Below, in pieces: positions 5,671 through 48,691 of a stretch of 64,000 bases of DNA. Position 1 is the first letter of the stretch; each line of letters opens with the position of its first letter. The notes beneath the pieces are model-generated. The model searched no databases. It was given only the letters and a program-made list of their open reading frames with translations, and was not told where the DNA came from. The position numbers and the translations under genes are program-made. Origin of the DNA: a virus; the IMG/VR virus record IMGVR_UViG_3300031787_007892, positions 1 to 64,000 of that record; one strand, given 5' to 3'.

Positions 5671-5680
5671 AGATTAACCC
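5651..5680 (-). terminator. Rho-independent terminator of the LRR-protein gene
   Basis: On the minus strand, GGGTTAATC and GATTAACCC form a perfect 9-bp stem with a TTTT loop, followed by eight T residues. The upstream arm contains the TAA stop codon of the LRR protein gene. Confidence 0.88.
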
Positions 5681-6957
5681 CAAATTCTCAATTTCACTTT
5701 CAAATCCTCAGGAAGTTTTAAGCTATCACATCCTTTGAAGTTCACCAATTTAAGATTTGGTAAATCTTTCAAACATTCAGGAATTGATTTAAGATTCTTG
5801 TTGTTTGGAAGTGACAAGTATCTTAATTTCTTACAGTCACATATTTCAGATGGTAATTCACTAATCAATCCATCAATGTGAAGTCCTTCAAGGTTTGTTA
5901 ATCTACCGATTGTTTTTGGTAATGGGAAACCTTGTGAACCTGAATTTCCACCTGAGAAATCCATTTTTGTAATAGTATCAGGCAATGATTCAAAGAACTC
6001 ATCAAATCCATATAACGCAATGAATTGTGCTGCTGGGCTTCTTGGGAATTCAACATCAACCGATGTTCCTCCTTTACCTGAACTCTTGGTCATATTTTCC
6101 ATAAACTGAGGTTTGAAGTATTCTTTTACTTCTTTGTCAGTTTGATTTAAAAACTCAACTAAGTTGATTGAACGGTCATCCTTGTCCATGAATTGAGAAC
6201 TTTGGAAATGGAATTGCCATCTATTTGTTGGTAATCCAGTATCTTTAGATGGTTCAGAGTTTTTGTCGTAAATCTGGTACAATGGACCGTCTTTGATATA
6301 TCTTTCAAAATAAGACAAACCTGGTGCTGATGTGCACCATCTTGTTTCTTTATTTTGACCACCGTAGAAACAAGCCGCTTCTTTACCCAATTCATCTGTT
6401 CTTGTAATTTTTGTAATTACATAGTTTGGTGTTTCAACTTCAAATGAACCACCAGGATGTGAATATTTAGCATCTTTTCTTTCTGCTTTAGTTGTTGTCG
6501 CTTTTTCTAATGAAAAATCTTTAACCAAATCATAAAGTTCGTCTGAGGTCAATTTATTAATATCTCTTTTGTCAACAGGTAATTGATTCTTGAATCTTTC
6601 AAATTTAATTAAATCATCTTTAACCTTATATAAATCCTCAAAAAATAAATCAATTCTTCCTTGTGATTCTCCTGTAATATTTTTACCAACACCTTCAGGA
6701 CGTAATCTTTTAATTTGATTAATCATCCATTGAACATATCCACCAGTCTTTTTAACTTGGTTAAAATTTTCAGGATTTTCCTCAACTCTTGATGTTGGGT
6801 CATTGGCAATTAATATCAATAACTCATTAGGTGTCAAAACAGGTCTAATTTTTTTACCTGTTTTTTTATCAACTGTTGGCTCAGTAAACTTCTTCAAGAA
6901 GAGTTCTGAACGAACATCTTCATTGATGATAGTTTTTAACATTTCTGTGAATTTCAT
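5674..6957 (-). CDS. Leucine-rich-repeat protein with putative capsid-targeting N-terminus
   Basis: A 427-residue protein with three visible parts. Residues 1-13 form a short helix ending in IINE, resembling the (I/L)-x-E sites cut by T4-type prohead proteases. Residues about 190-280 contain ETRWCTSAPG, then GPLYQIYD and QFHFQSSQFMDKDD, a conserved block seen in several phage proteins of unknown function. Residues about 315-427 hold leucine-rich repeats (LTNLEGLHIDG, KKLRYLSLPNNKNLKSIP, LPNLKLVNFKG). I infer a virion-packaged protein that binds a host target, but no activity can be assigned. The gene is monocistronic and ends in a strong terminator. Confidence 0.75.
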   Translation of the reverse strand: MKFTEMLKTIINEDVRSELFLKKFTEPTVDKKTGKKIRPVLTPNELLILIANDPTSRVEENPENFNQVKKTGGYVQWMINQIKRLRPEGVGKNITGESQGRIDLFFEDLYKVKDDLIKFERFKNQLPVDKRDINKLTSDELYDLVKDFSLEKATTTKAERKDAKYSHPGGSFEVETPNYVITKITRTDELGKEAACFYGGQNKETRWCTSAPGLSYFERYIKDGPLYQIYDKNSEPSKDTGLPTNRWQFHFQSSQFMDKDDRSINLVEFLNQTDKEVKEYFKPQFMENMTKSSGKGGTSVDVEFPRSPAAQFIALYGFDEFFESLPDTITKMDFSGGNSGSQGFPLPKTIGRLTNLEGLHIDGLISELPSEICDCKKLRYLSLPNNKNLKSIPECLKDLPNLKLVNFKGCDSLKLPEDLKVKLRIWG

Positions 6958-8749: not shown

Positions 8750-8893
8750 ATGATTATGTCAGAATGTAAGCAATGTAAAAAGAAACCGTTAACTCGTTAT
8801 AATACTTTTGTAACGGTTATTTCAGTTTATCTACTAATAACATCTGTGTTAGGTACAATTGAACTATATAAGTTCATCTTATCACTTTTTTAA
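8750..8893 (+). CDS. Small membrane protein with CxxC (47 aa)
   Basis: The protein begins with a short soluble part holding CKQC and several lysines, followed by one hydrophobic helix of about 20 residues (NTFVTVISVYLLITSVLG). It would sit in the inner membrane with one span. It is on the strand opposite to its neighbours and its 3' end overlaps the dnaJ 3' end by 12 nt. No family is recognised, and the short length keeps the call tentative. Confidence 0.5.
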   Translation: MIMSECKQCKKKPLTRYNTFVTVISVYLLITSVLGTIELYKFILSLF

Positions 8894-9889
8894 TATACTC
8901 AAGATTTTTTCTTTTTGTTCTTCAGTAATTTTACTCAATGAACGATTCACATGTATTTTGACTATCAAATCACCCCTTCCTTCATTGATATAATATCCTT
9001 TACCTTTAATTCTCAATGGTTTTTCAGTTGTTAAAGTATCAACAGGTACCTTAATCATTAACTCACCTTCAGGGTGTGGTATTTTAAAACTATTTTCAGT
9101 TATAAAATCTTCTGGTGATACTCTTATGTTAGCATATAAGTCAGCGCCAATTTTCTCAAAATTTTCATCAGGGTTTAATCTGATTTGAATTACCAAATCA
9201 CCAACCCCAACACTATTTTGATAATCACCGGCATTTGGAACCCTCAAGAAATCACCATTGTCTAATGAACGTGGTATATTAATATCTATGGATGCAAATG
9301 TTGGTTTGTGACCATTGCCATTGCACGTAAAACACGTTTCAATCAATACTGAACCCTGACCCTTACAAGATGGACAATCGTGGGTCTGAACGTGTATCTG
9401 ACCACCAAAATTAAACTGTTGTTGAACAACACCCCTTCCTTGACAAGTCATACATTGTTCACGTTTTCCACCATTACCACTACAAACGCTACATTGTTCT
9501 TTTTTGTGGTAATTAATCTTTTTGTTTGACCCCAACATTGATTCAGAGGGTGTTACATGTACGTTCAATACTTTGTCAGGAGCTCTTTGTCTTCTCCTTT
9601 GTTGAAATGGATTAAATCCACCGTTAAACATTGAAAACAAGTCATCCATACCTCCACCACCTGAACCATTAAACATACCGCCAAATGGGTTGTTTTTTTT
9701 ATTATCATATTCTTGTCTTTTTGATTCAGTACCAATTGTGTCATACGCTTCAGCTATTTCCTTAAACCTATCAGCACCTTCAGGGTTTACATCTGGGTGG
9801 AATTGCTTACTTAATTTCCTATAGGCTTTCTTTATTTCCTCTTGGGAAGCTTTTTCATTAACACCTAATATTGAGTAGAAATCTTTCAT
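8882..9889 (-). CDS. dnaJ: DnaJ-type co-chaperone (Hsp40, type I)
   Basis: A 335-residue DnaJ with the full type I layout. The J domain (residues 1-65) has the HPD tripeptide in KQFHPDVNP. A Gly/Phe-rich stretch lies at about 70-100. Four CxxCxGxG zinc motifs (CSVCSGNG, CMTCQGRG, CPSCKGQG, CFTCNGNG) lie at about 135-205, followed by the C-terminal substrate-binding domain. It stimulates the ATPase of host DnaK and delivers clients to it. In a phage it probably assists virion folding or host takeover. It is slightly shorter than bacterial DnaJ. Its start codon shares the palindrome CATG with a divergent gene. Confidence 0.95.
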   Translation of the reverse strand: MKDFYSILGVNEKASQEEIKKAYRKLSKQFHPDVNPEGADRFKEIAEAYDTIGTESKRQEYDNKKNNPFGGMFNGSGGGGMDDLFSMFNGGFNPFQQRRRQRAPDKVLNVHVTPSESMLGSNKKINYHKKEQCSVCSGNGGKREQCMTCQGRGVVQQQFNFGGQIHVQTHDCPSCKGQGSVLIETCFTCNGNGHKPTFASIDINIPRSLDNGDFLRVPNAGDYQNSVGVGDLVIQIRLNPDENFEKIGADLYANIRVSPEDFITENSFKIPHPEGELMIKVPVDTLTTEKPLRIKGKGYYINEGRGDLIVKIHVNRSLSKITEEQKEKILSILKK

Positions 9890-10529
9890 GAATTACATTG
9901 TTGTATTGTTTAAGAATAAGAAAAGAAAAAAAATCATCAAATCTTTTGTTAGAAAAAATGTTGCGGAATTGTATTTTAAGAAAATTTGTGAGCAATCTGA
10001 CCAAGTAAAGTTTAATGTTGAGGTTGAAAACTCATTGGATGTAACGTATGAAGTTGGTTTATTATCTAAAACTATTGATACCCAATTTCAATTATTCTCT
10101 CAAGATGATATTGGTAGAAATGTTAGGGTAAACCTTGATGATTCTGATTTACAGATAATTAAAATTCACAAATATAGAATACCTGAAAAATTACAGGATT
10201 GGTCAACAAATAAAAGAATTACATATGATGAATTCTTTAAAAAACATTTTACCAACAAAGATTTAAAGAATGTTTTTACCGTTAATAATAAAATTGTCAT
10301 TCAAAAAGACGATGATACATCAATATATTCATTGAAAAATGTTGATGAGTCACAAAGGTTATTAATGTTATTACAGGATGAATTTATTAGGTTAAAAAGG
10401 GCAGACGCAATATTTGTTAAAGACATGGATACTATACAAAGAAAGTATCTGTATGAACATTTGGAAAAATTGGGTATAGATAAAAAAAGATTGTATAGAC
10501 AATCTACTACTTTTTCAGAACGAAAGTAA
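9888..10529 (+). CDS. Hypothetical protein divergent from dnaJ
   Basis: A 213-residue soluble protein with a very basic N-terminal segment (KNKKRKKIIKSFVRKN) and several beta-rich stretches. No family is recognised. Its ATG overlaps the dnaJ ATG on the other strand (CATG at 9887-9890), so its promoter must lie inside dnaJ or it is read from the upstream plus-strand gene. Its 3' end overlaps the next minus-strand gene by 23 nt. Confidence 0.8.
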   Translation: MNYIVVLFKNKKRKKIIKSFVRKNVAELYFKKICEQSDQVKFNVEVENSLDVTYEVGLLSKTIDTQFQLFSQDDIGRNVRVNLDDSDLQIIKIHKYRIPEKLQDWSTNKRITYDEFFKKHFTNKDLKNVFTVNNKIVIQKDDDTSIYSLKNVDESQRLLMLLQDEFIRLKRADAIFVKDMDTIQRKYLYEHLEKLGIDKKRLYRQSTTFSERK

Positions 10530-10731
10530 AATCAACGTCTGAAATCGAAATAACAATTTCATTATTTCCTTTGTCAATTTCCCTAAAATTAGTTTGTAAT
10601 TTTCTAAATTTTTCTTCAGGTAATTCCACTATAATCTTGCTGTGTCCTGAAATAAATGTATTTTCAATTGATTCTGTTAGTTCAGCCAACTGTGTTAACC
10701 AATCCCTAGAGTTTTCTTTATTCTCTTCCAT
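10507..10731 (-). CDS. Hypothetical protein (74 aa)
   Basis: A small acidic protein with a helical N-terminal half and a beta-rich C-terminal half (KIIVELPEEKF, EIVISISDVDFTFVL). Function is unknown. It overlaps the upstream small gene by 37 nt and converges with the plus-strand gene ending at 10529. It is the last gene of a run of short overlapping minus-strand genes. Confidence 0.65.
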   Translation of the reverse strand: MEENKENSRDWLTQLAELTESIENTFISGHSKIIVELPEEKFRKLQTNFREIDKGNNEIVISISDVDFTFVLKK

Positions 10732-10922
10732 AACGAAATGTCTGTTGGTTCAATATCAATTGTATTTTTAATATCTTCTTTATTAATAGTTTTTAAGCTT
10801 TTAACAAAATTTTCTTTTTGTAATTGGATTTCATTTTGGTCCTGAAGTTTTGACTTGTCATACCAATCCAATAATTTATCAAGATATGGATTCTTGTTCT
10901 GATTCGAGTTTTGGGATGTCAT
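10695..10922 (-). CDS. Hypothetical protein (75 aa)
   Basis: A small hydrophilic protein, Asn/Gln/Lys-rich, ending in WKRIKKTLGIG, which could be a short amphipathic membrane-touching helix. Function is unknown. It overlaps both neighbours (44 nt upstream, 37 nt downstream), typical of the compact small-gene cluster here. Confidence 0.65.
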   Translation of the reverse strand: MTSQNSNQNKNPYLDKLLDWYDKSKLQDQNEIQLQKENFVKSLKTINKEDIKNTIDIEPTDISLWKRIKKTLGIG

Positions 10923-11280
10923 CTACGTCAAATTTTAAATTTTTCAAATCTTCCAATCCACCTTTTTCAAATAAAGTTTTTAATTCATTAACCTTTTCTT
11001 TGAAAAGTCTTTCTTTTTCCTCTTTCTCCTTATTGTAATTAATAACTGTTTCAATATTATTGATTGTTTCAGATATTGATTCTTCGTTTATTTCAGAAAC
11101 AAACGAAATGTTTTTACTTTTATCGTCAGATTTATTGAATACTGTTTTGGTTTCATCAACCTGACTTTTTAATACCGCCCAACTCGCAGGAAATACCATA
11201 TCAAAACTTAAATAAGTTTTAAGTTTTCTTATCGATGCACAATAATCAACAATGTTTTCAATTTCTTTGTATAAACTCAT
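10879..11280 (-). CDS. Hypothetical protein with coiled coil (133 aa)
   Basis: An N-terminal globular part with a PASWAVLK motif is followed by a Lys/Glu-rich helix (residues about 80-110) that would form a coiled coil, then an acidic tail. No known family. It overlaps the membrane-protein gene upstream by 4 nt, so it is probably expressed with it. Confidence 0.75.
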   Translation of the reverse strand: MSLYKEIENIVDYCASIRKLKTYLSFDMVFPASWAVLKSQVDETKTVFNKSDDKSKNISFVSEINEESISETINNIETVINYNKEKEEKERLFKEKVNELKTLFEKGGLEDLKNLKFDVDDIPKLESEQESIS

Positions 11281-12249: not shown

Positions 12250-14046
12250 TTATTGAGTTTTTCTGTTGTAATCAATAAGATTTTTCATTTTTTCCATATC
12301 ACTGATTACTTTTTTGTTTTCAACTGACTCTTCAAGCTTGTTAAAAATTTGTTGTGTTGCTTTCAACGATTTCAAATTACCGTTTGATTTTTCACTACCA
12401 GCAATGTCAACAGGTGCTGGTTGTCTCTTATAAGATGCGTTCATTTGTTCTGCACCATATAAATTTTCTTTATAATTCTTGTAGAATTTTTCACCTACTT
12501 CACTTGGTACTACATTACCTAAAGCGTTACCGTCTTCATCAACTTGTGCGTTACCAGTAGTTGAGTGACCTTTTAAGTACTTTTCAATTTTAGTATCATC
12601 AGGTTTGATTTCATCAAATACTAAATTTGTTTGACCAGGATACGCGAAAGCATCTATATATTCATCTACAGCGTTCGATGCGTCATAAGCATTTTTCTTG
12701 TCATCAGAAACTTCTTTACCAAAATCTTCTCTTGACATAATTTTATTACCTTTAGGAAATGACTGTGGGTTTTCTTCATATTCAGTACCCATGTTTTTCA
12801 TGTAATCCTTCATTTTAGCCGCTACTTGTTTCATAGCATCTGTATTTTCTTTCTTAGTTGTATTCATTGCGGTTTTAAACCCTTTGTCTACAACTTTTTC
12901 AGCTTCAACTAATCTTTCAATAAAGTTAATTAATTCAGATTCTGTAAAAACAACTTTTTCTTTAGTATTTTTATTTTTACTTTCTTTTACTTGATATGTT
13001 TTTCCGTCAACTTCAAAAGAACTTTTACCATCTTTTTTAGCATTTGCTAAAGCTCCTGAAAATGCGTTACCTTCCCCCACTTCGTTTTCACCCATTTCAT
13101 TTTTTCTTGTTTTTACCTTAAATGGTTTACCTGTCATTTCTCTATATTTGTTAAACATTGTTTCACCATTTCTTTTATTAAACCAAGATTGTTTATCGCC
13201 ATATTTGTCATATAATTGCTGAAAAGTATCAAATTCTTCAGTATCAAAATCATCACCACCTATACCATAGATATCTCCACTTCTAACCGGTCTGTCTTTT
13301 TCGTCACGGTATTCATCACCTTTAAAATCTTTTCTTTTAGGGTCACCAAATGAACCATACATAGCTTCACCAATTTCATTTTTTCTTGTTTTTACCTTAA
13401 ATGGTTTACCTGTCATTTCTCTATATTTGTTAAACATTGTTTCACCATCTCTTTTATTAAACCAAGATTGTTTATCACCATATTTGTCATATAATTGTTT
13501 AAAAGTATCAAATTCTTCAGTATCAAAATCATCACCACCTATACCATAGATATCTCCACTTCTAACTGGTCTGTCTTTTTCGTCACGGTATTCATCACCT
13601 TTAAAATCTTTTCTTTTAGGGTCACCAAATGAACCATACATACCTTCTTCAATTTCCATATCTTCTGAGTCTCTGTTGTCAAATCTACCCTGACCAGGTC
13701 CAACATAGTGCCAACCCCTAATATCGTCATAGTCATATCCTAAATTTCCTAAATATGGGTTTTCTTTTCTGTCTTTTTCACGAGCAACTTCAGGGTCTTC
13801 TTTTTTACCAAACATTTTCTTGAATATGTTTTCTTCACCCATTTCACCTGAAACAATCTCACCGTATTCAAACCCAGCTGGTGTTCTATCTTTATCTGAC
13901 ATCTTATCTCTTAATTTCTTAAATATATCTTTTTTAGATATAACTGTTTCAGCAGCAGAATCGTCATCCATATCAGTAATATCAATGAAAGTATCTTCAT
14001 CTTCCTTGATAATCTTCTTAAGTAAATTTAAAATTTTGTTTTCCAT
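12250..14046 (-). CDS. Putative internal virion protein with tandem 93-residue repeat
   Basis: A 598-residue highly charged protein. Residues 1-15 form a lysine-rich helix ending in KKIIKE, similar to T4 capsid-targeting peptides cleaved after (I/L)-x-E. Residues about 133-225 and 226-318 are two near-identical copies of a unit beginning YGSFGDPKRKDFKGDEYRD and ending KTRKNE. Near residue 375 it has TESELINFIERLVEAE, a helix that also looks like a processing motif. No enzymatic motif is visible. I infer a scaffold/core or packaged protein. A TATTTATA motif lies 15 nt before the ATG. Confidence 0.7.
   Translation of the reverse strand: MENKILNLLKKIIKEDEDTFIDITDMDDDSAAETVISKKDIFKKLRDKMSDKDRTPAGFEYGEIVSGEMGEENIFKKMFGKKEDPEVAREKDRKENPYLGNLGYDYDDIRGWHYVGPGQGRFDNRDSEDMEIEEGMYGSFGDPKRKDFKGDEYRDEKDRPVRSGDIYGIGGDDFDTEEFDTFKQLYDKYGDKQSWFNKRDGETMFNKYREMTGKPFKVKTRKNEIGEAMYGSFGDPKRKDFKGDEYRDEKDRPVRSGDIYGIGGDDFDTEEFDTFQQLYDKYGDKQSWFNKRNGETMFNKYREMTGKPFKVKTRKNEMGENEVGEGNAFSGALANAKKDGKSSFEVDGKTYQVKESKNKNTKEKVVFTESELINFIERLVEAEKVVDKGFKTAMNTTKKENTDAMKQVAAKMKDYMKNMGTEYEENPQSFPKGNKIMSREDFGKEVSDDKKNAYDASNAVDEYIDAFAYPGQTNLVFDEIKPDDTKIEKYLKGHSTTGNAQVDEDGNALGNVVPSEVGEKFYKNYKENLYGAEQMNASYKRQPAPVDIAGSEKSNGNLKSLKATQQIFNKLEESVENKKVISDMEKMKNLIDYNRKTQ
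13095..13652. repeat. Tandem duplication of 279 bp inside a coding sequence
   Basis: Two head-to-tail copies, 13095-13373 and 13374-13652, differ at only a handful of positions and keep the reading frame (93 codons). The low divergence points to a recent duplication or ongoing gene conversion. Confidence 0.92.
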
Positions 14047-19308: not shown

Positions 19309-19335
19309 CCTCCTATTAATCATAGGAGGTTTTTT
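19309..19335 (+). terminator. Rho-independent terminator, plus strand
   Basis: CCTCCTAT and ATAGGAGG form a perfect 8-bp stem with a 5-nt loop, followed by TTTTTT. It ends the single-gene unit at 18980-19264. The hairpin also encodes the last residues of a minus-strand small protein. Confidence 0.9.
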
Positions 19336-19447
19336 GTTTTCTTGAATATACTTTTTTGGATTTTACAACCCTCACAACATTTTTTCTACGAACAATTTGT
19401 GCGATGTGTCCGTCTGATAAACCCTGTTTCCAATCTTTCTTTTCCAT
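19316..19447 (-). CDS. Small basic protein (43 aa)
   Basis: The peptide starts MEKKDWKQGLSDGHIAQIVR and continues with RKNVVRVVKSKKVYSRK; it is strongly basic and could bind nucleic acid. The coding is supported by a sigma-A-type promoter whose -7 box lies 7 nt before the ATG, and by a sensible composition. The 3' end runs through the plus-strand terminator hairpin. No family is recognised. Confidence 0.55.
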   Translation of the reverse strand: MEKKDWKQGLSDGHIAQIVRRKNVVRVVKSKKVYSRKQKTSYD

Positions 19448-26644: not shown

Positions 26645-27169
26645 TTAAACTGTGATTGTGAAGTAGTTGTCAAACTCATCCATATTTTCAATAATATTCA
26701 AGTGTAAAGTGTTTCTACGGGGGTTATCAATGTTTAACTTATTTGTGTTACTCTTCATTAATGTTTTAATTATAATTTCAATTTCACCTCTGTTTTTATT
26801 AAAGTTTAACACCTTACAGCTAATTTGTAATCCTGAATCTGTTTTTACAATAAAAAATTCTTGTGAATTTTCTTTTCTAGTTTGACCTGAGCTAAAATCT
26901 TTTTTTAATAAGGTTCCGTCGATTACTGGACCTTGTATTGCCCTTTTTTGTACAATAAACGCTTTGTTTGTAATCTTTGGGATTGCGTCTTTAATTGCCG
27001 ACTTGATTTCATCAATTGTTATATCTGAATCATTTTCTTTTCTTGTCATTCTTTCTTGAGCATGAGTACTTAATATAAACCTTATTTTATAATCATTTAA
27101 GGTAACATCAACAATTGGATTATCAATTTGTTCTTCAACCAATATGTTAAGAATCCCAAGTAGTTTCAT
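26645..27169 (-). CDS. Putative packaged protein with toxin-like fold
   Basis: A 174-residue protein. Residues 1-14 (MKLLGILNILVEEQ) form a hydrophobic helix ending in V-x-E, like T4 internal-protein targeting peptides. The rest starts with a strand and FILSTHAQERMTRKEN, then a helix IDEIKSAIKDAIP, then strands FFIVKTDSGLQIS and EIEIIIKTLM. This resembles the small RelE/BrnT/DUF4258 type of fold (weak similarity by eye). A TATTTATA motif lies 4 nt before the ATG. I infer a late protein carried in the head, with unknown target. Confidence 0.65.
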   Translation of the reverse strand: MKLLGILNILVEEQIDNPIVDVTLNDYKIRFILSTHAQERMTRKENDSDITIDEIKSAIKDAIPKITNKAFIVQKRAIQGPVIDGTLLKKDFSSGQTRKENSQEFFIVKTDSGLQISCKVLNFNKNRGEIEIIIKTLMKSNTNKLNIDNPRRNTLHLNIIENMDEFDNYFTITV

Positions 27170-27173
27170 TAGT

Positions 27174-27181
27174 TATAAATA
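27174..27181 (-). promoter_or_regulatory. TATTTATA motif, putative late promoter
   Basis: TATTTATA in sense orientation, 4 nt before the ATG of the 26645-27169 gene, preceded by AG. It lies directly downstream of a terminator, so a new start of transcription is needed here. Confidence 0.45.
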
Positions 27182-27190
27182 CTCATAAAT

Positions 27191-27218
27191 TAAAAAGAGG
27201 ACCTTTTGGGTCCTCTTT
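27191..27218 (-). terminator. Rho-independent terminator, possibly bidirectional
   Basis: AAAGAGGACC and GGTCCTCTTT form a perfect 10-bp stem around a 5-nt loop. On the minus strand it is followed by TTAATTT; on the plus strand by TTAG. It ends the G+C-rich transcript and anything reading through from the tail operon. Confidence 0.88.
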
Positions 27219-27376
27219 TAGAAGTCGTGAGACTTGGCTCCACCTCTTGTCCACAATGTTCTAGTTAGCGGTGGACTTGCTCAGAAGGTTTTGTTTCGGG
27301 TTCATTGGGAGGGTTACCTTCAACCTTTCCAATCAGGTTCTTTTGATTTAAGTCTTCAGAACCTTCAGACTTCACT
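27194..27376 (-). ncRNA. Candidate structured small RNA (or 36-residue GTG peptide)
   Basis: About 180 nt between a consensus promoter and a terminator, with roughly 45% G+C against an AT-rich surround. Potential minus-strand pairings include AAGTCT/AGACTT and an interlocking AGGTTCT/AGAACCT (pseudoknot-like), GTCCAC/GTGGAC, GAAGTC near the 5' end with GACTTC near the 3' end, and a hairpin AAGTC-TCAC-GACTT. A GTG-started frame of 36 codons (27375 to 27265) also begins at the predicted transcription start. It is hydrophilic and ends PSEQVHR. I favour RNA because of the pairings and composition, but a leaderless peptide or dual-function RNA is possible. No tRNA T-loop or tmRNA tag was found. 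Confidence 0.55.
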
Positions 27377-27379
27377 ATA

Positions 27380-27410
27380 CAAAGATAGTGAATATTTTGA
27401 TAAATACAAA
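27380..27410 (-). promoter_or_regulatory. Consensus Bacteroidota promoter with overlapping inverted repeat
   Basis: On the minus strand, TTTG at 27407-27410, a 19-nt spacer and TATCTTTG at 27380-27387. An 8-bp inverted repeat TTCACTAT-n6-ATAGTGAA (27371-27392) is centred on the -7 box and could be an operator or a 5' hairpin. Confidence 0.75.
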
Positions 27411-27418
27411 CTTTTTTT

Positions 27419-29623
27419 TTAAAAATCGTATTTTACGGTAATCTGTTGTACCCCTTGTCTTTTTTCGGGATTCTGTAATTTTGACATCATTAATAAATCT
27501 TGGTCAGAGTTATATAATCCTACTTCAGTGAAATACACATCTTTACCTAACGACCATTTTGGATTTGATGAACGAATATATTGTGAATCAGCAAGGTTAA
27601 CCAAATATCTCATTTCATATATTGTTGCTTGTACATCAGAATGAACTGTTCCATAAAAGAAATATTCATCACCAAACGTCATACCAGTATTATAGTTAAT
27701 CAATGGTAATTCAATGTAATTTTCTAATCTATAAAAACTCGCGTTATCGTATTCGTCTTTTGTTATTTGAAATGTTGTTCCGCTTATTTCGAGTGGTCCA
27801 ATATTGATAGAGCCAGTGTTTGCTGTAATTGCAGATGTAACATCAATTTCTCTCCACTGCATCGAATCAGGTCTTTCACCCGTTGGTACAATTTGACAAA
27901 TTAACTTAACATTAGTACATGTAAATCCTGAAGGTTGTAAACCCATGTCCTCAATTAAGAATGGGAATTCATTACCAAATCTCACAATTACATCATCTGT
28001 TTGACCACTTACGGTTGAACCTGCAATTTTTGAGTAATAGTTACAATGTAAACCATTTGTAGAACCAGTGTTTTCAAATCGGTATGTTACAAACATTGTT
28101 TCAGTATCACCTGTTAATATACCACTTGTTGCCGCGATGTTTTGGTTAAACGTGTTTGGAACCACCAATCCTAATCTTGGTGCGGGTAATGTATAGTTTC
28201 TATTTGATTTATACGACATGGCGGCTGATAATTCTTCATCATCAATTGCTATCATTTTCAAATCAGGAAATACTTTACCAACTCTGTTTGGATATCCATC
28301 AGCATTTGCGTGAGTATCCCATAAGTGATAATAACGTAAACCCGGATAATTCATATTATCATTTTCTTCTGATAACATATAATGTGGTTGAAATAAATTT
28401 AAACCATCAAAACCATCAGGGTCAACGTAGAATGATTCACCCATAACACCTGTATTTGATTTATGCCACATCAAAGTTGGTAAGTCAAGTTTAAAGTTTC
28501 TTCCTTGTCCTGTGGCACCTGAATTTGCCAAGTCAAATGCTTCTGTTGCAAATTTCTCACCATAAAAATTATCAATACCCTGATTGGTATAATGTATCAA
28601 ACCAATAACTTTTTGTTCCTCTGGTTCAACATATATTTTTTCATCAAATGAATTGTAATAAAATGTGTCAGTTGTTCCTGAAACATAATTTATGTCTTCG
28701 AAAATTTGACCACCTTTGGTTTGATATCCCAAGAATTCTTTTGTCGACGAATAACCCGTTGAACCAAATTCACTGAAATCTTTGTAAAAAGTATATGATA
28801 AACCTGCTGGTGATTCGGTCCATGGCTGATTCATATTCCAAACTAAGACATCTTGTTGTTGAATTTCACAATTCAACTCAAACGAAAACACACCACCATC
28901 ATAGTATGGTGTTGGTGTATAACTATCATAATATGGTGTCATACCTGATGGGTAGAAAAACGCTCTTCCTGTTCCTGTAAATGAACTAAAGTCAGGTAAT
29001 ATTCTATCAACAGTTATTGTACTTCCAACGACATCTTCAACTCTGTAAGTTAAAATAGGATATGGATAAGTTAAATCATTACCGCAGTTATTATCATTAT
29101 TTAAATATAAAACAACAAACTGACCAACTTCAGGTGTTCCTGTCACAGTAGCATCACAGTTGTTGACAGTGACATCAAATGTATTCCCACTTGTTAATGC
29201 CGATAAATTAAATTTATAATTTGCAGTCACGGTAAGTGCTGAACTTGTAAAAGCACTAAACGCTCCTGTTGAACCTGTAAAAAATCCTCTTGGCTGAGCT
29301 GTGTTAAAAATTGGAACTACTTGTGAATCTTGAAAAGGTATACCAAATGTATTAGTTTCACCGGTTGAACTAGACAAATAAATTGGATATTTAATACCCA
29401 TTTTATTACTTTGTGGTACACCTGTGTTATTCTGATAATTAAATTCAGGAACTAAAACTTGTAAAGTTGTTAAATTACCACCGCTGATACAATCATAACA
29501 AACCTCACTATCTCCTAACTGAAAATAAGCAACATTAAAGTTACCTTGAGAAATTTTTCTTCTTCCAACATCAGTTAGTTGGGTGTTTATTAGAGCTGTT
29601 GTATCTTTTATTATGAATGCCAT
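27419..29623 (-). CDS. Large tail/baseplate-type structural protein
   Basis: A 734-residue beta-rich protein. The N-terminus (ALINTQLTDVGRRKISQGN followed by VAYFQLGDSEV) looks like a module used to attach proteins to a phage tail or baseplate; I recognise the style but cannot name a T4 counterpart. The remainder is rich in Thr, Ser, Gly and aromatic residues, as in surface-exposed virion proteins. The C-terminus again has a conserved-looking part (KDVYFTEVGLYNSDQDLLMM). TATTTATA lies 4 nt before the ATG. Confidence 0.75.
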   Translation of the reverse strand: MAFIIKDTTALINTQLTDVGRRKISQGNFNVAYFQLGDSEVCYDCISGGNLTTLQVLVPEFNYQNNTGVPQSNKMGIKYPIYLSSSTGETNTFGIPFQDSQVVPIFNTAQPRGFFTGSTGAFSAFTSSALTVTANYKFNLSALTSGNTFDVTVNNCDATVTGTPEVGQFVVLYLNNDNNCGNDLTYPYPILTYRVEDVVGSTITVDRILPDFSSFTGTGRAFFYPSGMTPYYDSYTPTPYYDGGVFSFELNCEIQQQDVLVWNMNQPWTESPAGLSYTFYKDFSEFGSTGYSSTKEFLGYQTKGGQIFEDINYVSGTTDTFYYNSFDEKIYVEPEEQKVIGLIHYTNQGIDNFYGEKFATEAFDLANSGATGQGRNFKLDLPTLMWHKSNTGVMGESFYVDPDGFDGLNLFQPHYMLSEENDNMNYPGLRYYHLWDTHANADGYPNRVGKVFPDLKMIAIDDEELSAAMSYKSNRNYTLPAPRLGLVVPNTFNQNIAATSGILTGDTETMFVTYRFENTGSTNGLHCNYYSKIAGSTVSGQTDDVIVRFGNEFPFLIEDMGLQPSGFTCTNVKLICQIVPTGERPDSMQWREIDVTSAITANTGSINIGPLEISGTTFQITKDEYDNASFYRLENYIELPLINYNTGMTFGDEYFFYGTVHSDVQATIYEMRYLVNLADSQYIRSSNPKWSLGKDVYFTEVGLYNSDQDLLMMSKLQNPEKRQGVQQITVKYDF

Positions 29624-31674: not shown

Positions 31675-34440
31675 TTATGAACATGTACAATCATTATGTA
31701 CCGAAACTATTGATGTCGCAGTTCCACCCAGTGTAGTTCCGACAACTTCCCAACATCCTGAGTATCCAGTTCCATTCAATCTCACAAAATCGCCGACACT
31801 TACATTCAATAAACCAAAGTTGTTAACCGCAATACTTCTAACTGGTTCAGAACAACTTTCTACGATAAATTTATCAGGTAAAGTTGTTTTTGTAGGAGTT
31901 TGAGTAGGTGTCTTAGTTGGTGTAGGAGTTGGAGTTTTAGTTAAGGTAGGTGTGTTAGTTGGTGTCTTAGTAGGTGTGTTAGTTGGTGTCTTAGTCATAG
32001 TAACCGATGGAGTTACTGTAACAGTTGGCGTAGGAGTTAATGTAGGTGTCTTAGTTTGTGTAGGTGTCTTTGACGGTGACGCATTAGGTGTATATGTTGG
32101 TGTTGAAGTCTTAGTTACAGTTGGTGTTATTGTCGGAGTAACAGAACTAGTTGGTGTTGATGTTGGTGTAATTGTATTAGTTGGTGTTACTGTTGTTGTT
32201 GGAGTTACCGTTGGTGTTACAGTACTAGTTGGAGTAGGTGTTGGTATTAAAGAGTTCTCACAACTTGAACATCCACTGAATGATGCAATAATAGTATTGA
32301 TAGTTAAAGTTGGACTTTGGTCATAAACAATATCCAAATAAGTATAACACTTAGTTGTTCCTGATACATCAGCACTGAAGGTTTGACCTGTTGTTACAAT
32401 AGTACCACCTGATGTTCTCATAGACTCATTGATATAATAAATTTCATCATCAGAACAATCTTGAATTCTACGTACAAACACACACTCGAATTCAGTATCA
32501 TTTATGATATAAGTTGTTGAACCTGATACTGGTACATTTCTTTGTAAACTTGGTGTCGGAGTGACTGTTGGAGTTGGTGTGGGGGTTGGAGTTATATCTT
32601 CAACTGTAACATCGGCATCTACCAAAAGACAAGGATTTGGACTCGGTGTTAAACTAATTGTCGGTGTTGGTGTCGGACAAGTCTCAGTTGGTTCGGGCAC
32701 ATAGTCACAATCAAACAACGCTTGAAAATCAACCGTAATACAGACGTTTGGTGTTGGTGTGGGGGTTGGTGTTGGACACGGTCCTTCTGACCATATCAAT
32801 TCATCCAAATCAGGACAATTTGAAAAACATGGGGTTTTACCCGCCAATATACAATCACCACCTAAAGTATCGGATAAACACCATTTTGTTCCATCATAAA
32901 AAACAGTACCTGATGTGGAACCTGTCCAATATGGTCTTCCATTATAAGTTCCACCCGATGTATAATTTCCATCATACATTGATGTACCTGAAAAGTTTGT
33001 ATATAAACAAAATTCAGTATTACAAGGACTGTAAACAGGTGTAACAGATGGTGTCGGCGTTTGGGTTGGTGTAACAGTTGGTGTTGGTGTTGTTTGATTA
33101 CAGTCCCCAATTACTGTAACAAATACACCCTCAGGTACAATCACACTATATTCACATGCACAAATATTTAATTCAGATAGTTCAGGTACAATCAAATTTT
33201 GATTATCACCATTACAATCTACATATGTTACTGTTGATGGGAACTCCTGAGTATTATTAATTTGATATTCAATACAGTTACTTCCCGGTCCACAACAACT
33301 ATAATCGTCAGTACAAACCGAACAATTATCGTATGGTCCTGTCAGACCACTAATAACATATCTTTCACCAAAACCAGTCATTGGTATTACTTCAGCACAG
33401 CCTGTAAAACCAGTTCCTGTTATATAATACACCTGACCAACATTTATGGTTCCAACATAATCATCGACAACAAAAATTTCGTTTGGTGAACAACATGCCC
33501 TAAATTGATAATCCGTAGGACCAGCTGTTACTGAAGGAGTGGGAGTATTAGAAGGTGTTAAAGTTGGTGTAACCGTATTGGTTGGTGTAACCGTATTGGT
33601 TGGTGTAACGGTTTTAGTTGGTGTAACCGTATTGGTTGGTGTTACTGTTGGTGTTACTGTTGGTGTGACTGTTTTTGTAGGAGTTACCGTTGGTGTAACC
33701 GTATTAGTTGGTGTTACGGTATTTGTAGGCGTAGGTGTAGGTGTTGGGCAAACTTGTGAACAAGCATCGGTATACGAACTTACTAAACCTCTGTGTGGTA
33801 AATTAGGGTTAAAACATACAACATCATTAATACTACCACCGCTCACAAATGTTCCACAACAATCAGTATACGAACAAAGTATATTATCAACGGTACCTGA
33901 AACACAACAAGGGTATGTTGTTAAACAATCATTACAATCAGACCAAGTACCAGGTGTTGTAACATTTATTGTTGTTTCACCTGTCTGAACATAAATTGTT
34001 GAACCTGTGACTCCTGTAATATAAGATGCACACCCAACAAAAGCAAATGTTGTAGGGCTCGTTGTGGCAGTGGTTATAGAAAATCTCCATATTTCACCAA
34101 CGGTTAATGGTCCATATGTATTTTCAAAAGCGAAATCACCCCTTCTAATACTAAAGGTACTACCATCACAACAAGCTGAAAAAGTATAATAACATCCATT
34201 TGGATTTGCAGCGTCACATGCCGGACAAGTACTATATTGTTCAGTTGCAAATGATTGTTCTGGTGGGTCTAAAGAATTAGTAATTGTGTAGTAATAACAA
34301 CTACCGTCACCGGTATAAATAACGGTGCTTACATTTGCGGTCCACGTACCAGCAGTGTCAATTTCAAATGTTCTATAAATTGGAGCACCAGACCCTAAAG
34401 GGTTACAACATTGATAAAAATACCTATTAACTAGTGCCAT
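31675..34440 (-). CDS. Long fibre protein with Cys-rich domains and Thr/Pro linkers
   Basis: A 921-residue protein. Compact domains carry a paired-Cys pattern ([31 protein letters not shown]; also [10 protein letters not shown] and [18 protein letters not shown]). They alternate with linkers made of TPT, TVTPT and TKTPT units at residues about 229-305, 445-465, 605-635 and 735-855. The linkers look like extended, possibly O-glycosylated stalks. I infer a fibre or host-contact protein. TATTTATA lies 7 nt before the ATG. The antisense strand of the linkers opens spurious long Val/Gly-rich frames. Confidence 0.78.
31885..32245. repeat. Low-complexity Thr/Pro-coding repeat array
   Basis: Imperfect repeats of the 6-bp period GTTGGT/GTAGGA with TTAGTT spacers code on the minus strand for TPTKTPT-type linkers. 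A second large array lies at about 33530-33755. Such arrays can expand or contract in frame. Confidence 0.85.
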
Positions 34441-41709: not shown

Positions 41710-41877
41710 ATGAAATTACTTAAAACAATAGAAAAATTAATAAGAGAATCTGAGGACGCTTATAATAAAGCGTTGGAGTCTGTTGTTGACGAAAAAGAAT
41801 TGGACCGTCTTGAAAAGAACTACAAGGACAGTTTAAAATTGATGAAAACCTTTCATCAGATTAACAAAAAGAATTAA
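41710..41877 (+). CDS. Small helical protein with packaging-type N-terminus (55 aa)
   Basis: The peptide starts MKLLKTIEKLIRESEDAYNK and continues as a charged helix rich in Lys, Glu and Leu. The first 13 residues end in L-I-R-E, like a T4-type capsid-targeting peptide. It lies alone on the plus strand between minus-strand clusters and has the TATTTATA motif 4 nt upstream. Function is unknown; an internal virion peptide is inferred. Confidence 0.65.
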   Translation: MKLLKTIEKLIRESEDAYNKALESVVDEKELDRLEKNYKDSLKLMKTFHQINKKN

Positions 41878-41879
41878 TA

Positions 41880-44009
41880 CTATAACCCAAATTGTGTTTT
41901 GTTTGCGTTGTAATTTTGAATAATTTCAGATTGGGTTAGTATTTTATTATAAAATCTGTAGATTGCAATATCCATAGAACCTTCTTTACTATAAGTTCCG
42001 TTACCCTGAGCACCACCACCAAATACTAATTTACCTCCTGAGCTTGGACTCCAAGAAGTGTTGGATGAAGTACCTGTTAGTACACCATTTACGTATAATC
42101 TAGTTTGATTTAATGTTTGGTCCCATACCGCAACCCATTGTTGCCATGATGCTGTTGATGACCAAGAAGGTCCTGCCGAACCTCCACTATTTTTTAATAA
42201 ACCACCCGAATAAAACCCACTAGAAAAATAACTACCATAAATCCCATTCATTACAAAATTTCCAACAGGATTTTTTATCCATAATTCCATAGATATATTT
42301 ACATTTCCCAATAAATTACCACTTGTTACATTTATAAAACCAAAATCATCAACATTATCAAAACTAATGAAACCACCATTAGCCGAATTAAATGTTGGTG
42401 AATTTAATAAAGTCATATTACTTCCATATCCACTTATATCATTCCAAGTACTTGAACCTGATGTATATGAATTTGGGTCTGAAGCATCTAAAAAAAGAAC
42501 TAACCCTGAATTTACAGGAAATGCGGTTGGTTGATATATTGGAAGTTGTGAATTATATAAATTAACAATATCGGTTGCGGATAATTCTCTATTATATAAA
42601 TTAAAAGAGCCAACGTTCATATTGGTAGCAGAATTGACACTATCACTTCTAGTTCCCATAGTTAGTCTATTATGTGTATTCCAAGACGAAACACCATTAG
42701 CTACTAAAGTAATCATATTCCAAGAACCTGTTGTATTTGTTCCATCTGATACTACACTAGAAGTATTACCAGATGAAATAAGAGTTCCATTTTTATATAA
42801 TTTAATTCCTGAATTTCCTGTTCCTCCCCAGTATTGGTAATTATTAAGATTACTTTGTCTTCTTACTCCCCATCCTTGTAATAATCCAGCCTCTTCAGCA
42901 TTATATGAAAAATATGTTTCCCAAGTATTGGTACTATTAACATACATCCAAATATTGGCAGTTATTGTTGTATAATTTTTTAATGTTGAATCTGTTAAAA
43001 GAATATAATCATCAACACCATCAAGATTAATATTACCATTGTTAATCGCATTTAAATAAGGACCATTAATCAAACTAAAACTTGACGTGTTTAATAAACC
43101 ATTATTTGGGATTGTTAAACCAGCCGCAGTTACAGGAAACGATGAAAATGGGTTTGCAGTGGTTCCATCTTCTAGTTGAAATTCTGTGAGTACATATTGA
43201 GTATTAGCAGCATAACTTCCAGCAATATATAAAAAATTTTTAGAAATATTATAAGTAAAAGTTTGGGTATATTTTTGCCAAGTAGTTGTAACTGGAAAAT
43301 TCCCATAGCTCCAACTACTTACATCTCCACTTCCGTTTTGATTATTCCAATTAATATCAAAATTAGGTCCCGATAAGACTTTACCCCAAAAAGAAAAAGT
43401 ATAAGTTTGTCCTGTAACTAATAATCCGCCCGGACCATAAACTGGATTAGTATATCTACCCCAAGTAAACCCACCTCCTAAATTTTGTAAAGCCTTCGTT
43501 GATTTAGAACCAACATAAGGACGGTCATTTGTTATATCCGCAATACTGATAGTACCACCATATGCCACCCAACCAATTGTGGTTCCATAAGCAAAATCAC
43601 CATTAGCAAAATAATTGTTTACCTTAGGACAAAAATCTAATACTAACCCACTAGTTATTGACCCACCGTAAGGTAATTCATTTTTTAACATGGAATAGAT
43701 TCCTGAATCTAACAACCAATTTATTGCAGTAGTAGTTCCTGTAAATGGTGTTGAACCTACTCTATCTGGTAACCCGTTAATTATTGTTAATAAACTTGTA
43801 TTGGTAAAATCACCCGTTCCCCACATTAAAGGTGGGTTAGAATTTTTTATAATAACATATTGATAAGACGAATCAACACTATTGTAAAAAGTAGCGTTTG
43901 CCGCACCTGCACCCCAGTTTGCGGGACCAACACCTACAAGGATGTTGGACTGTTTTGCCGTGTTTGGTGGTTGTACTGAACCTGTCTTATATGCTATTGG
44001 TTTGGACAT
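41880..44009 (-). CDS. Receptor-binding-type tail protein with LamG-like domains (paralog 1)
   Basis: A 709-residue protein, one of three paralogs. Residues 1-120 (KPIAYKTGSVQPPNTAKQS, VGPANWGAGAANATFYNSVD) are nearly the same in all three and probably attach to the virion. A carbohydrate-binding-like domain follows (about 150-290, ending TEFQLEDGT), then two LamG/concanavalin-type domains (INLDGVDDYILL, ISFDNVDDFGFI). The end QNYNANKTQFGL is also shared. It probably binds host surface glycans. The Met at 44009 was chosen as start because it aligns with the paralogs and lies 4 nt from TATTTAT. Confidence 0.82.
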   Translation of the reverse strand: MSKPIAYKTGSVQPPNTAKQSNILVGVGPANWGAGAANATFYNSVDSSYQYVIIKNSNPPLMWGTGDFTNTSLLTIINGLPDRVGSTPFTGTTTAINWLLDSGIYSMLKNELPYGGSITSGLVLDFCPKVNNYFANGDFAYGTTIGWVAYGGTISIADITNDRPYVGSKSTKALQNLGGGFTWGRYTNPVYGPGGLLVTGQTYTFSFWGKVLSGPNFDINWNNQNGSGDVSSWSYGNFPVTTTWQKYTQTFTYNISKNFLYIAGSYAANTQYVLTEFQLEDGTTANPFSSFPVTAAGLTIPNNGLLNTSSFSLINGPYLNAINNGNINLDGVDDYILLTDSTLKNYTTITANIWMYVNSTNTWETYFSYNAEEAGLLQGWGVRRQSNLNNYQYWGGTGNSGIKLYKNGTLISSGNTSSVVSDGTNTTGSWNMITLVANGVSSWNTHNRLTMGTRSDSVNSATNMNVGSFNLYNRELSATDIVNLYNSQLPIYQPTAFPVNSGLVLFLDASDPNSYTSGSSTWNDISGYGSNMTLLNSPTFNSANGGFISFDNVDDFGFINVTSGNLLGNVNISMELWIKNPVGNFVMNGIYGSYFSSGFYSGGLLKNSGGSAGPSWSSTASWQQWVAVWDQTLNQTRLYVNGVLTGTSSNTSWSPSSGGKLVFGGGAQGNGTYSKEGSMDIAIYRFYNKILTQSEIIQNYNANKTQFGL

Positions 44010-44013
44010 AATG

Positions 44014-44022
44014 ATAAATACC
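44014..44022 (-). promoter_or_regulatory. GGTATTTAT motif, putative late promoter
   Basis: GGTATTTAT in sense orientation, 4 nt before the ATG of paralog 1 (one base shorter match than TATTTATA). Confidence 0.42.
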
Positions 44023-44042
44023 AATTTAAAGATTTACAAACC

Positions 44043-44300
44043 TTAAATTGGGTTTGGGTCTGTCCATTCTGGTGTTGCCAAAATTGTTAATATTTCATCA
44101 TAGGTGTAAGGACCTTCTTTTGTTGTCATTGTTGCAACAAAATCTGGCGCTTCACCGTCCCATTTAATTAATGTCTTAGTTTCATTAACTGACTTTCGTA
44201 ATGTAGTTGCTGATGTTTCTAAAACCTCATCAAAATTAATTTTGTTAATTTCACTTACGTTAAAAATTAAAAAATTGCGTTCATCGTATATTTGTATCAT
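44043..44300 (-). CDS. Small protein between tail paralogs (85 aa)
   Basis: A short acidic protein starting MIQIYDERNFLIFNVSEINK, with TLIKWDGEAPDF near the middle and Pro-rich end. It may be a tail-fibre chaperone or a capping subunit, judging only from its position between receptor-binding proteins. It starts 11 nt downstream of paralog 2. Confidence 0.65.
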   Translation of the reverse strand: MIQIYDERNFLIFNVSEINKINFDEVLETSATTLRKSVNETKTLIKWDGEAPDFVATMTTKEGPYTYDEILTILATPEWTDPNPI

Positions 44301-44311
44301 AATTTTATTTA

Positions 44312-46483
44312 TTAAAGTCCATATTGTGCTTTTGTAGCATTATAATTTTGTAATAATTCGGCATTTGTTAATTGTCTGTTGTAAATCATTACTTTAAATA
44401 TTTTTCCTTTATATGTTCTACCCATAAAGGTATGTGAAAGAGTACTTACGTTTCTATTACCTATTGCACCCACATAGAAATTTTGGTCTAATGTTCTATT
44501 ATTTGGAATAATATAAAACCCATTACCATCTAATGGTAAATTAGATACACCATTTATCATAAATTGGTTAAGATAACCAGTTTGATAATCGTTAGCATCT
44601 GCAGCTCCCGCAATATAAGGTGGTGGTACAGCACCTCTAAAAGATTTAAAATTAGTACCATACCATCTTAAAGCACCATCACCTGTAGCATTAACACCCA
44701 CTAAAGCTGCCAATCCAGGAATATCGTTATCCATTATACCCCAAAAACAAATGGTACCCGCATATGTTGAAGTAAATTGAACGTAATCATCCACACCATC
44801 AAATACTAATGCTCCTCCATTTGTTGTGCTATATGAAGTCCCATTTATTAATGTTCCGTTATTGTTATATCCACTCAAATCATAAATTGTTGTTCCTTCA
44901 CCACCATAACAATTTGGATTTGAAAAATCGTAATAAACTGTTAATCCTTGATTAACTATAGATTGGGATGGGAGATAAATTGGTACTCCAGCACTATATA
45001 TATTTTGAATTTCCGTATTTGATAACACCCTATTATAATAATTAAAAGTATAAATGTTACCTTTAAAAGGATATTGTTGACCACCAACACTAATTACACT
45101 ATTAGAACTTACACCGGCACCACCACCTTCTACATTAGTTTGCAAAACACCATTGATATAAATTTTAGTATTATTATAGAGTGTTGTAGCGTTATTTCCA
45201 CCAACCCCATTAAAGGTAATAGCCATATGTAAAGGAACATTATCTTGGATAGCGTTATTTAACACATAATATCCACCACCATTAGCCGATGATACCCAAT
45301 AAAAATAAAAAGCACCAGTTCTAGGAACATGTGATAATCCCCAATTTGAACCTCCAGCACCAGCCAATTCAAACCATCCGTAATTATTATTAGACGCCCC
45401 TGTTCCCCATTCAAACCAACTTTCAATAGTGAAAGTTTTATCATTCCAAGTTGAGAATCCTATAGGATAAGTAATTCTATCATCCACACCGTCAAAATTG
45501 TATGACCCACCATATTTTCCACCAAAATAAGCACCATTAATTAAAGACCAATTTCCAGTGTTTATTAAACCTGTGTTTTGTGGAGTGTAATTAGGAAATG
45601 ATGAAAAAGTTGTTGATGTTGAACCTTCTTCAATTTGAAATTCAGTAAAAATAGACACACCAGCGACATTATAAAAATAAAATTGAGTTCTAGCGTCGTT
45701 ATATAAAAAAGTATAATTATACTTTCTCCAAGTACCATCTATTGTAGTACTTGGTAAAACAGTTCCGTTCCAAGGATATGAAAAATTGTTTAATTCTCCC
45801 AACCCATTTTGGTTATTCCAAATAGGTCCTTTATCAAATCCAATATCCCCGCTAGTACCATCTGTTTTTCTACCCCAAAACGAAAATGTGTATGTTTTAC
45901 CTACTTCCATTAAATTAGTTGTATACATTACATTACCACCATTTGTAATTTGTAATGCTTTAGTAGTTTTAGAACCAACATATGGTTTATTATTTGTAAT
46001 ATCAATTACAGTAGATGAACCACCATAAGAACCAAAATAAAAAGGATATCCAGATTCTGTGTTGTTAAAATCTCCATTAACAAATAAATTCTTTTGTGTT
46101 GCATTAAATCCCGCAGCCAATCCACTAACAACAGGACCACCGTAAGGTTGTTCATTTTTTAACATAGAATAAGTTCCTGAACCCAACAACCAATTTATTG
46201 CAGTACTAACACTTGTAAATGGTGTTGAACCTACTCTATCAGGTAAACCATTTATTATTGTTAATAAACTTGCATCAGTGAAATCACCTGTTGCCCACAT
46301 TGCTGGTGGGTTAGTATTTCTTATAATCACATATTGATAAGATGAATCAACACTATTATAGAAAGTTGCGTTTGCCGCACCCGCACCCCAGTTTGCAGGA
46401 CCAACACCCACAAGAATATTGGATTGTTTTGCCGTGTTTGGTGGTTGGATTGAACCCGTTTTATATGCTATTGGTTTCGGCAT
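44312..46483 (-). CDS. Receptor-binding-type tail protein with LamG-like domains (paralog 2)
   Basis: A 723-residue paralog with the shared N-terminal module (residues 1-120), a central carbohydrate-binding-like domain, and two LamG-like domains (YNFDGVDDRITYP near 350, LVFDGVDDYVQF near 575). It ends LQNYNATKAQYGL. The central and C-terminal domains differ strongly from the paralogs, while the N-terminus is conserved, as expected if host range is changed by domain replacement. It overlaps the upstream paralog stop by 1 nt. Confidence 0.82.
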   Translation of the reverse strand: MPKPIAYKTGSIQPPNTAKQSNILVGVGPANWGAGAANATFYNSVDSSYQYVIIRNTNPPAMWATGDFTDASLLTIINGLPDRVGSTPFTSVSTAINWLLGSGTYSMLKNEQPYGGPVVSGLAAGFNATQKNLFVNGDFNNTESGYPFYFGSYGGSSTVIDITNNKPYVGSKTTKALQITNGGNVMYTTNLMEVGKTYTFSFWGRKTDGTSGDIGFDKGPIWNNQNGLGELNNFSYPWNGTVLPSTTIDGTWRKYNYTFLYNDARTQFYFYNVAGVSIFTEFQIEEGSTSTTFSSFPNYTPQNTGLINTGNWSLINGAYFGGKYGGSYNFDGVDDRITYPIGFSTWNDKTFTIESWFEWGTGASNNNYGWFELAGAGGSNWGLSHVPRTGAFYFYWVSSANGGGYYVLNNAIQDNVPLHMAITFNGVGGNNATTLYNNTKIYINGVLQTNVEGGGAGVSSNSVISVGGQQYPFKGNIYTFNYYNRVLSNTEIQNIYSAGVPIYLPSQSIVNQGLTVYYDFSNPNCYGGEGTTIYDLSGYNNNGTLINGTSYSTTNGGALVFDGVDDYVQFTSTYAGTICFWGIMDNDIPGLAALVGVNATGDGALRWYGTNFKSFRGAVPPPYIAGAADANDYQTGYLNQFMINGVSNLPLDGNGFYIIPNNRTLDQNFYVGAIGNRNVSTLSHTFMGRTYKGKIFKVMIYNRQLTNAELLQNYNATKAQYGL

Positions 46484-48630: not shown

Positions 48631-48637
48631 TGTAATA

Positions 48638-48646
48638 ATAAATACC
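48638..48646 (-). promoter_or_regulatory. GGTATTTAT motif, putative late promoter
   Basis: GGTATTTAT in sense orientation, 7 nt before the ATG of paralog 3. It is the first gene of the receptor-binding-protein run. Confidence 0.42.
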
Positions 48647-48691
48647 ACAAAATGTTTTCCTTTAATCATTTCTTTCGTATTTTTATTCCAA

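Follow-up and report, generated by a model that had tools for sequence, protein, structure and literature searches.

A very probably noncoding, pseudoknotted small RNA in a clade-specific cassette of a phage with a probable Bacteroidota host

The window, that is, the whole stretch of 64,000 nucleotides analyzed in this work (positions 1 to 64,000 of IMG/VR virus record IMGVR_UViG_3300031787_007892, which carries phage replication genes), harbors on its minus strand a short unit that very probably encodes a noncoding structured RNA. The claim that the RNA is structured is based on covariation and not on folding energy. The pairings support a model in which the molecule would fold from end to end, with a first pseudoknot (helices S1 and S2), a hairpin (P3) whose loop enters a second pseudoknot (S3), two further hairpins (P4 and P5) and a terminator. 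The cassette that contains the unit is clade-specific, with a putative tail gene on one side and a RuvC-like gene on the other. To our knowledge, the cataloguing of structured RNAs in Bacteroidota phages has so far been scant; here, two covarying pseudoknots could be modelled from four sequences. The explanation taken as a whole (a noncoding RNA gene with this fold, in a clade cassette, with an early, protein-binding accessory role) is tentative, and we rate its chances somewhat short of even.

The features discussed below are the following.

27410-27380, minus strand: Bacteroidota-type sigma-A promoter, TTTG-N19-TATCTTTG (-33 box TTTG, 27410-27407; spacer N19; -7 box TATCTTTG, 27387-27380)
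27220-27376, minus strand: core of the very probable structured noncoding RNA, from the alignment of four distinct sequences and helix support
27372-27367 with 27355-27350, minus strand: helix S1 of pseudoknot 1, AAGUCU/AGACUU
27364-27358 with 27341-27335, minus strand: helix S2 of pseudoknot 1, AGGUUCU/AGAACCU, crossing S1
27333-27322 with 27315-27304, minus strand: hairpin P3
27321-27316 (GAAGGU, P3 loop) with 27289-27284 (ACCUUC), minus strand: helix S3 of pseudoknot 2, from the stem scan
27276-27271 with 27254-27249, minus strand: hairpin P4, GUCCAC/GUGGAC, with the conserved loop AACUAG
27247-27242 with 27225-27220, minus strand: hairpin P5, AGAGGU/ACUUCU
27219-27193, minus strand: intrinsic terminator, 11-bp stem followed by a T-run
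27181-27174, minus strand: late-promoter-like motif TATTTATA, ahead of the 174-aa protein gene
26645-27169, minus strand: gene of a 174-aa protein whose predicted fold, following an N-terminus of low confidence, is RelE/RegB-like

The transcription unit

An initial annotation of this DNA had proposed an independent small minus-strand unit for a structured, pseudoknotted RNA, made up of a TTTG-N19 promoter, about 180 nt with roughly 45% G+C in an AT-rich genome, and a strong terminator. Each of these elements is found in the sequence, and the existence of the unit is supported by promoter, terminator and covariation together. Promoter and terminator bracket about 186 nt of the minus strand, whose G+C content is 43.5% (27194-27379) or 44.6% (27220-27376) against 30.7% for the window; only 0.29% of all 157-nt stretches equal the latter segment in G+C richness. 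The pattern TTTG-N17-22-TANNTTTG has nine minus-strand and four plus-strand occurrences in the 69.8-kb record, against one and three, respectively, for its reversed control. Promoter-like sites of the E. coli type are at chance level between 24000 and 30000 (31 versus 31.5 expected), and the same region contains eight terminator-like sites versus 2.2 expected, one of which is P3 read on the plus strand.

In F. psychrophilum, the TAnnTTTG box is reported to lie at -12 to -5 (PMC9723704); because of this spacing, the transcription start is predicted at about G27375 on the minus strand, three bases ahead of helix S1. The promoter type is also the reason why the host is probably a member of the Bacteroidota.

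Secondary structure and covariation

Four distinct sequences of the RNA are available: that of the window, that of L020 (nearly identical to it), and those of L027 and L028; window, L027 and L028 represent three diverged lineages. They were aligned with MAFFT on sequence only (alignment A2), and every possible stem was then scanned in three rows, L020 being dropped as near-identical to the window. Seventeen stems passed and five of them, namely P5, S1, S2, S3 and P4, contained compensatory changes; under the null model, 200 column shuffles gave a mean of 0.82 compensated stems and a maximum of four. The remaining 12 of the 17 showed no compensation, and some overlap the model (e.g., UCCACC/GGUGGA). 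In the full structure, 98.1% of 156 cells are paired and seven pairs are changed on both sides; none of 500 shuffles equalled the paired share or the two-sided changes, and 51 of 500 equalled the count of pair types. When the partners were slid by one to three columns, 33-52% of cells remained paired and no pair was changed on both sides, a control that is flattered by the structure having been drawn from the same sequences.

Each helix is supported by one or two compensated pairs from the four sequences, three of them diverged. The interlocked pairings AAGTCT/AGACTT and AGGTTCT/AGAACCT, noticed in the initial annotation, correspond to S1 and S2, and both covary in the homologs. In S1, one pair is U-A in the window and L020 and C-G in L027 and L028, with one mismatch in L028; in S2, one C-G pair becomes A-U in L027 and U-A in L028, L027 also having one U-G pair and one mismatch. 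It is by covariation only that the H-type pseudoknot is recognized, the two helices crossing with one compensated pair each. P3 is nearly invariant (9 of 10 pairs), with a single two-sided change of G-C to A-U in L027. The pseudoknot GAAGGU/ACCUUC (S3) is a supported addition to the pairings first noticed; one of its pairs reads G-C in the window, A-U in L027 and G-U in L028, and L027 has one mismatch. The proposed GTCCAC/GTGGAC pairing is P4 and is compensated in the homologs, C-G becoming U-A in L028 and U-G in L027, and A-U becoming G-U in L027. In P5, two pairs are changed two-sidedly in L027, and the 16-nt loop GGAGCCAAGUCUCACG (27241-27226) differs there at one base. P5 is absent from L028, where, judging from the sequence, the region between two AAGAGG repeats was presumably deleted.

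The alignment is also in agreement with the model in other respects. In its shared parts nearly all gaps fall in unpaired columns, and RNAalifold, which draws no pseudoknots, independently recovered S2, most of P3, P4 and P5. Regarding the strand, non-standard cells number 3 of 115 when the alignment is read as minus strand versus 8 as plus strand, and five G-U cells are compatible with the minus strand only. Nested folding energy is of little help: the z-score of -3.5 obtained with the terminator is carried mostly by the terminator itself, the values without it are little better than those of shuffles (-1.45 for the window, and -1.6, -0.86 and -0.78), and folding of the plus strand is equally good or even superior (-4.1).

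A further pairing had been suggested to close the molecule, GAAGTC with GACTTC. It is present in the window; only five of its six pairs exist in L027 and it cannot form in L028, so that its role is doubtful. This stem has one compensated pair, a result equalled by 162 of 500 shuffles, and it excludes both S1 and P5; it may represent an alternative fold.

Coding potential

The idea that the unit encodes a short protein, either through a 36-codon frame starting with GTG (as first suggested) or through a 14-codon ATG frame (MNPKQNLLSKSTAN), appears extremely improbable. In each of the four sequences the register of the GTG frame stays open for about 27 aligned codons, but a 1-nt deletion breaks the frame in L020, and L027 and L028 have no aligned start codon. 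Only the window and L028 preserve the full ATG frame, which is shortened in L020 and L027. It had been proposed to weigh compensatory changes in homologs against a synonymous bias: compensated pairs were found, as reported above, and three pairwise comparisons revealed no excess of third-position changes (third/first/second positions 9/5/8, 4/7/3 and 7/6/9).

Distribution of the RNA and structure of the cassette

The RNA is identical across seven IMG/VR contigs and differs by one 1-nt gap in an eighth (L009/L020). L027 and L028 surfaced among the relatives of the upstream gene (47 loci), and the RNA-bearing records thus number 11: the window, the eight of the near-identical set, L027 and L028. 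When the window is compared with L020 over 190 columns of the RNA, a single 1-base gap and no substitution are seen; the promoter stretch (39 nt) is likewise free of substitutions, against 264 of 2205 and 55 of 528 substituted columns (10-12%) in the flanking genes. Local recombination could be the source of this near-identity. In L027, the promoter adjoining the RNA is only weak (by eye).

The covariance-model search in related phages that had been suggested at the outset matched the diverged copies of L027 and L028 strongly and yielded no convincing member outside the clade. It covered 40 whole records for 40 of the 47 loci, i.e., all but six near-identical clade members and L041. Four real RNA records scored 152.8-186.2 bits and 15 other records 7.8-17.2 bits; seven of the latter matches were read individually and look like chance. 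At the other 36 upstream-gene loci (L029-L064), blastn found no copy of the RNA, nor did the covariance model find a convincing match in 35 of these records. Pattern scans of viral contigs likewise gave no convincing member outside the clade: one returned 16 stretches, six of them new and all six judged chance on reading, and a looser pattern returned 53, of which 43 new ones reached at best 17 bits with the covariance model. In GenBank phages and PLSDB plasmids, matches to the RNA were limited to stretches of 20-29 nt, and the 1001 bases around it had no match in GenBank phages. A pattern of 17 fixed bases in genome contigs (257 Gb) gave 10 stretches, not above chance by estimate; two of these, both from one genome, were read and neither resembled the RNA.

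Beyond the clade, the upstream gene could be read to its end in 34 relatives, and in every one of them the RuvC-like gene comes next, within 60 nt (RuvC being assigned by PHROGs for the window copy and by eye in the other relatives); for this reason the RNA cassette resembles, at the sequence level, an insertion confined to a single clade of phages. The product of the upstream gene, a 734-aa protein, belongs to no PHROGs or Pfam family and is putatively a tail protein. In the sister phage L023, of the same clade, the promoter is kept and the slot is occupied by an unrelated RNA-like unit and a different protein. This suggests that phages have a broader repertoire of interchangeable RNA cassettes.

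Comparison with known RNA families

At the gathering cut-off, Rfam 15 has no match in the whole window. When E-values up to 10 were admitted, the best match of the unit reached 21.2 bits against a cut-off of 70, and that of the L027 copy 19.9 against 80. The initial suggestion of a 6S-like RNA was not borne out: no Rfam match was obtained at the gathering cut-off, no 6S RNA is among the matches of the unit with E up to 10, and there is no single long hairpin. Indeed, the likeness to 6S RNA is in size only (about 186 nt here), the fold being multi-domain and pseudoknotted instead of a long hairpin with a central bubble. ARAGORN found no tRNA or tmRNA gene in the window. GOLLD and ROOL are standalone structured RNAs, some of them carried by phages, and far larger. 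The RNA described here shares with them its nature of standalone phage-borne structured RNA, but it is far smaller and has no Rfam match. A literature search, whose coverage mostly left out subscription journals, returned nothing apparently describing this RNA; on the basis of this result and of the Rfam one, we file it as a new family of a known type, the phage-borne structured small RNAs.

Type III antitoxins (ToxI, AntiQ, CptI) are reported to show the same order as found here, an H-type pseudoknot RNA followed by a terminator and a small-protein gene, and phage TE, with its pseudo-ToxI, provides a precedent for RNA mimicry by a phage (PMC5086642, PMC3475682). The likeness might extend to the neighboring protein, for which a structural model points to a possible RNase fold. 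In contrast, the antitoxin RNAs of the ToxIN family consist of tandem repeats with units of 34-36 nt (PMC5086642), and no tandem repeat (minimum score 30) is present in 27150-27450. Two distinct pseudoknots and two hairpins are also a difference from type III antitoxins, as is, with respect to type III systems, a neighboring protein that models as RelE-like.

The adjoining 174-aa protein

The gene of the 174-aa protein starts 24 nt past the terminator stem, and the protein is encoded downstream of the RNA in all 11 RNA-bearing records. Both models were run on 41 records, and it is in the same five that the RNA and the protein are strongly matched. In two records without the RNA, the N-terminal portion of the protein is weakly matched (14-15 bits); one of them encodes a protein of 128 aa that begins in a similar way and has no RNA match. 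In viral contigs, the protein profile found 10 loci, none on contigs beyond the clade.

In type III systems, the toxin next to the RNA belongs to the ToxN, CptN or TenpN family and processes that RNA. For the 174-aa protein, no PHROGs, Pfam, NCBIfam or PADLOC assignment was obtained above cut-off; the best NCBIfam match is rpsA (17.7 bits versus 577), and Pfam DUF4258 remains below threshold (13.7 bits versus a cut-off of 25, E 0.078). The best of five AlphaFold models, built with four sequences, has a pLDDT of 73.8 (range 47.7-73.8). With this model Foldseek found nothing at E <= 0.001, and the top VIA-align matches are nearly all RelE-superfamily toxins, with middling Z-scores of 5.3 and below. 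T4 RegB, an endoribonuclease of the RelE superfamily, gave the longest alignment among the 50 matches listed (113 residues, Z 4.8, rmsd 4.4), at 9% identity and a Foldseek E of 0.46; unlike RegB, the protein has a low-confidence N-terminal segment and a late-type motif. The modelled RelE/RegB-like fold is thus suggestive only.

The motif TATTTATA, a putative late promoter by analogy with the T4 motif, has 10 copies on the window's minus strand and stands ahead of 4 of 61 listed gene starts (14046, 27169, 29623 and 34440). Since it precedes the 174-aa gene, and since the protein has an N-terminal motif common to several phage proteins, this gene is probably late and the RNA probably early, as judged from sequence motifs.

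An N-terminus like MKLLxxIxxLIxE was recognized by eye in several proteins (a loose pattern gave 13 ORFs): in the window at 26645-27169, 5674-6957, 12250-14046 and 41710-41877, and at L023:8388, L027:8582 and L162:1501. Some of these genes have TATTTATA shortly upstream of the start. Such an N-terminus resembles the signal by which internal head proteins of T4 are targeted to the capsid and, by analogy, the proteins may be packaged and injected.

Possible function

The RNA has a nuclease-like protein as its neighbor in a slot particular to the clade, which makes its function directly testable; slots of this kind next to such proteins are where phages often keep genes of host conflict. We tentatively favor, at rather less than an even chance, a mechanism based on protein binding. 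According to this proposal, drawn from sequence features, the host RNA polymerase would transcribe the RNA early in infection, the compact fold would shield it from nucleases, and the RNA would bind a protein, either the 174-aa neighbor or a host defence factor, via its fold and the conserved loops UGAACCCGA, AACUAG and GGAGCCRAGUCUCACG. The bound RNA might then be a decoy or inhibitor in the host-phage conflict, or a partner of the adjoining RelE/RegB-like protein.

One or more conserved loops might instead find complementary mRNA or rRNA, of the host or of the phage, at an early stage of infection, making the RNA a base-pairing regulatory sRNA. This is a serious though rather unlikely possibility: three segments are conserved and unpaired, including the 16-nt P5 loop, which differs at one base between the window and L027 against three of six pairs in its stem, but that loop is missing from L028, and the perfect complements of four RNA segments within the window are only 8-10 nt long, none of them compelling. 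That the RNA and the 174-aa protein form a type III-like pair is unlikely, even though the two occur together in 11 of 11 RNA records with no strong match of either in 36 others, L023 differs in RNA and protein alike, the RelE-superfamily toxins and RegB dominate the structural matches, and the order of promoter, pseudoknot RNA, terminator and gene resembles that of type III systems (PMC5086642). The co-occurrence, indeed, is drawn from a single clade and from fragments, the protein is weakly matched in two records that have no RNA, the Z-score of about 5 is middling, the RNA lacks tandem repeats, another gene intervenes between RNA and 174-aa gene in L027, and the latter gene has its own TATTTATA motif, which implies that its timing may differ from that of the RNA.

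A cis-acting 5' leader or attenuator governing read-through into the 174-aa gene would fit the window, where the RNA is directly upstream of this gene with the terminator in between. We regard it as quite improbable: no antiterminator pairing is conserved (by eye) across the three lineages, the gene following the RNA in L027 encodes an LRR-like protein, and the 174-aa gene possesses a late-promoter-like motif of its own. We would give equally little credit to a more speculative scenario, a new kind of RNA-protein pair in which a nuclease-like, possibly virion-borne 174-aa protein would be matched by an antidote RNA with two pseudoknots, which the host would be made to produce as soon as the phage genome came in, sister phages swapping whole pairs in the slot.

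Other observations on the cassette and its surroundings

In L023 (8240-8366), the same promoter precedes a compact unit unrelated to the RNA of the window and closed by a terminator (fold z -3.0 including the terminator). By eye, GTATTAC/GTAATAC interlocks in it with CACCAAAC/GTTTGGTG. It is followed by a different protein, of 166 aa, for which a search of close relatives returned its own contig only. A promoter of this type also precedes a basic ORF of 43 aa on the minus strand of the window (about 19316-19447), whose end is terminator-like; L027 and, near 8520, L028 have relatives of this ORF immediately upstream of the RNA. In L028, two proteins (8756-9955 and 10204-11277) have many VERILQKEVKDT-like repeats, and the 174-aa domain forms the end of the second. 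The region 31675-34440 of the window, near the putative tail gene, encodes a 921-aa protein with long repeats of the PTPTPT/TVTPT type, and 41880-48669 encodes three similar tandem proteins of 714-728 aa, alike at their start, which are perhaps tail fibres.
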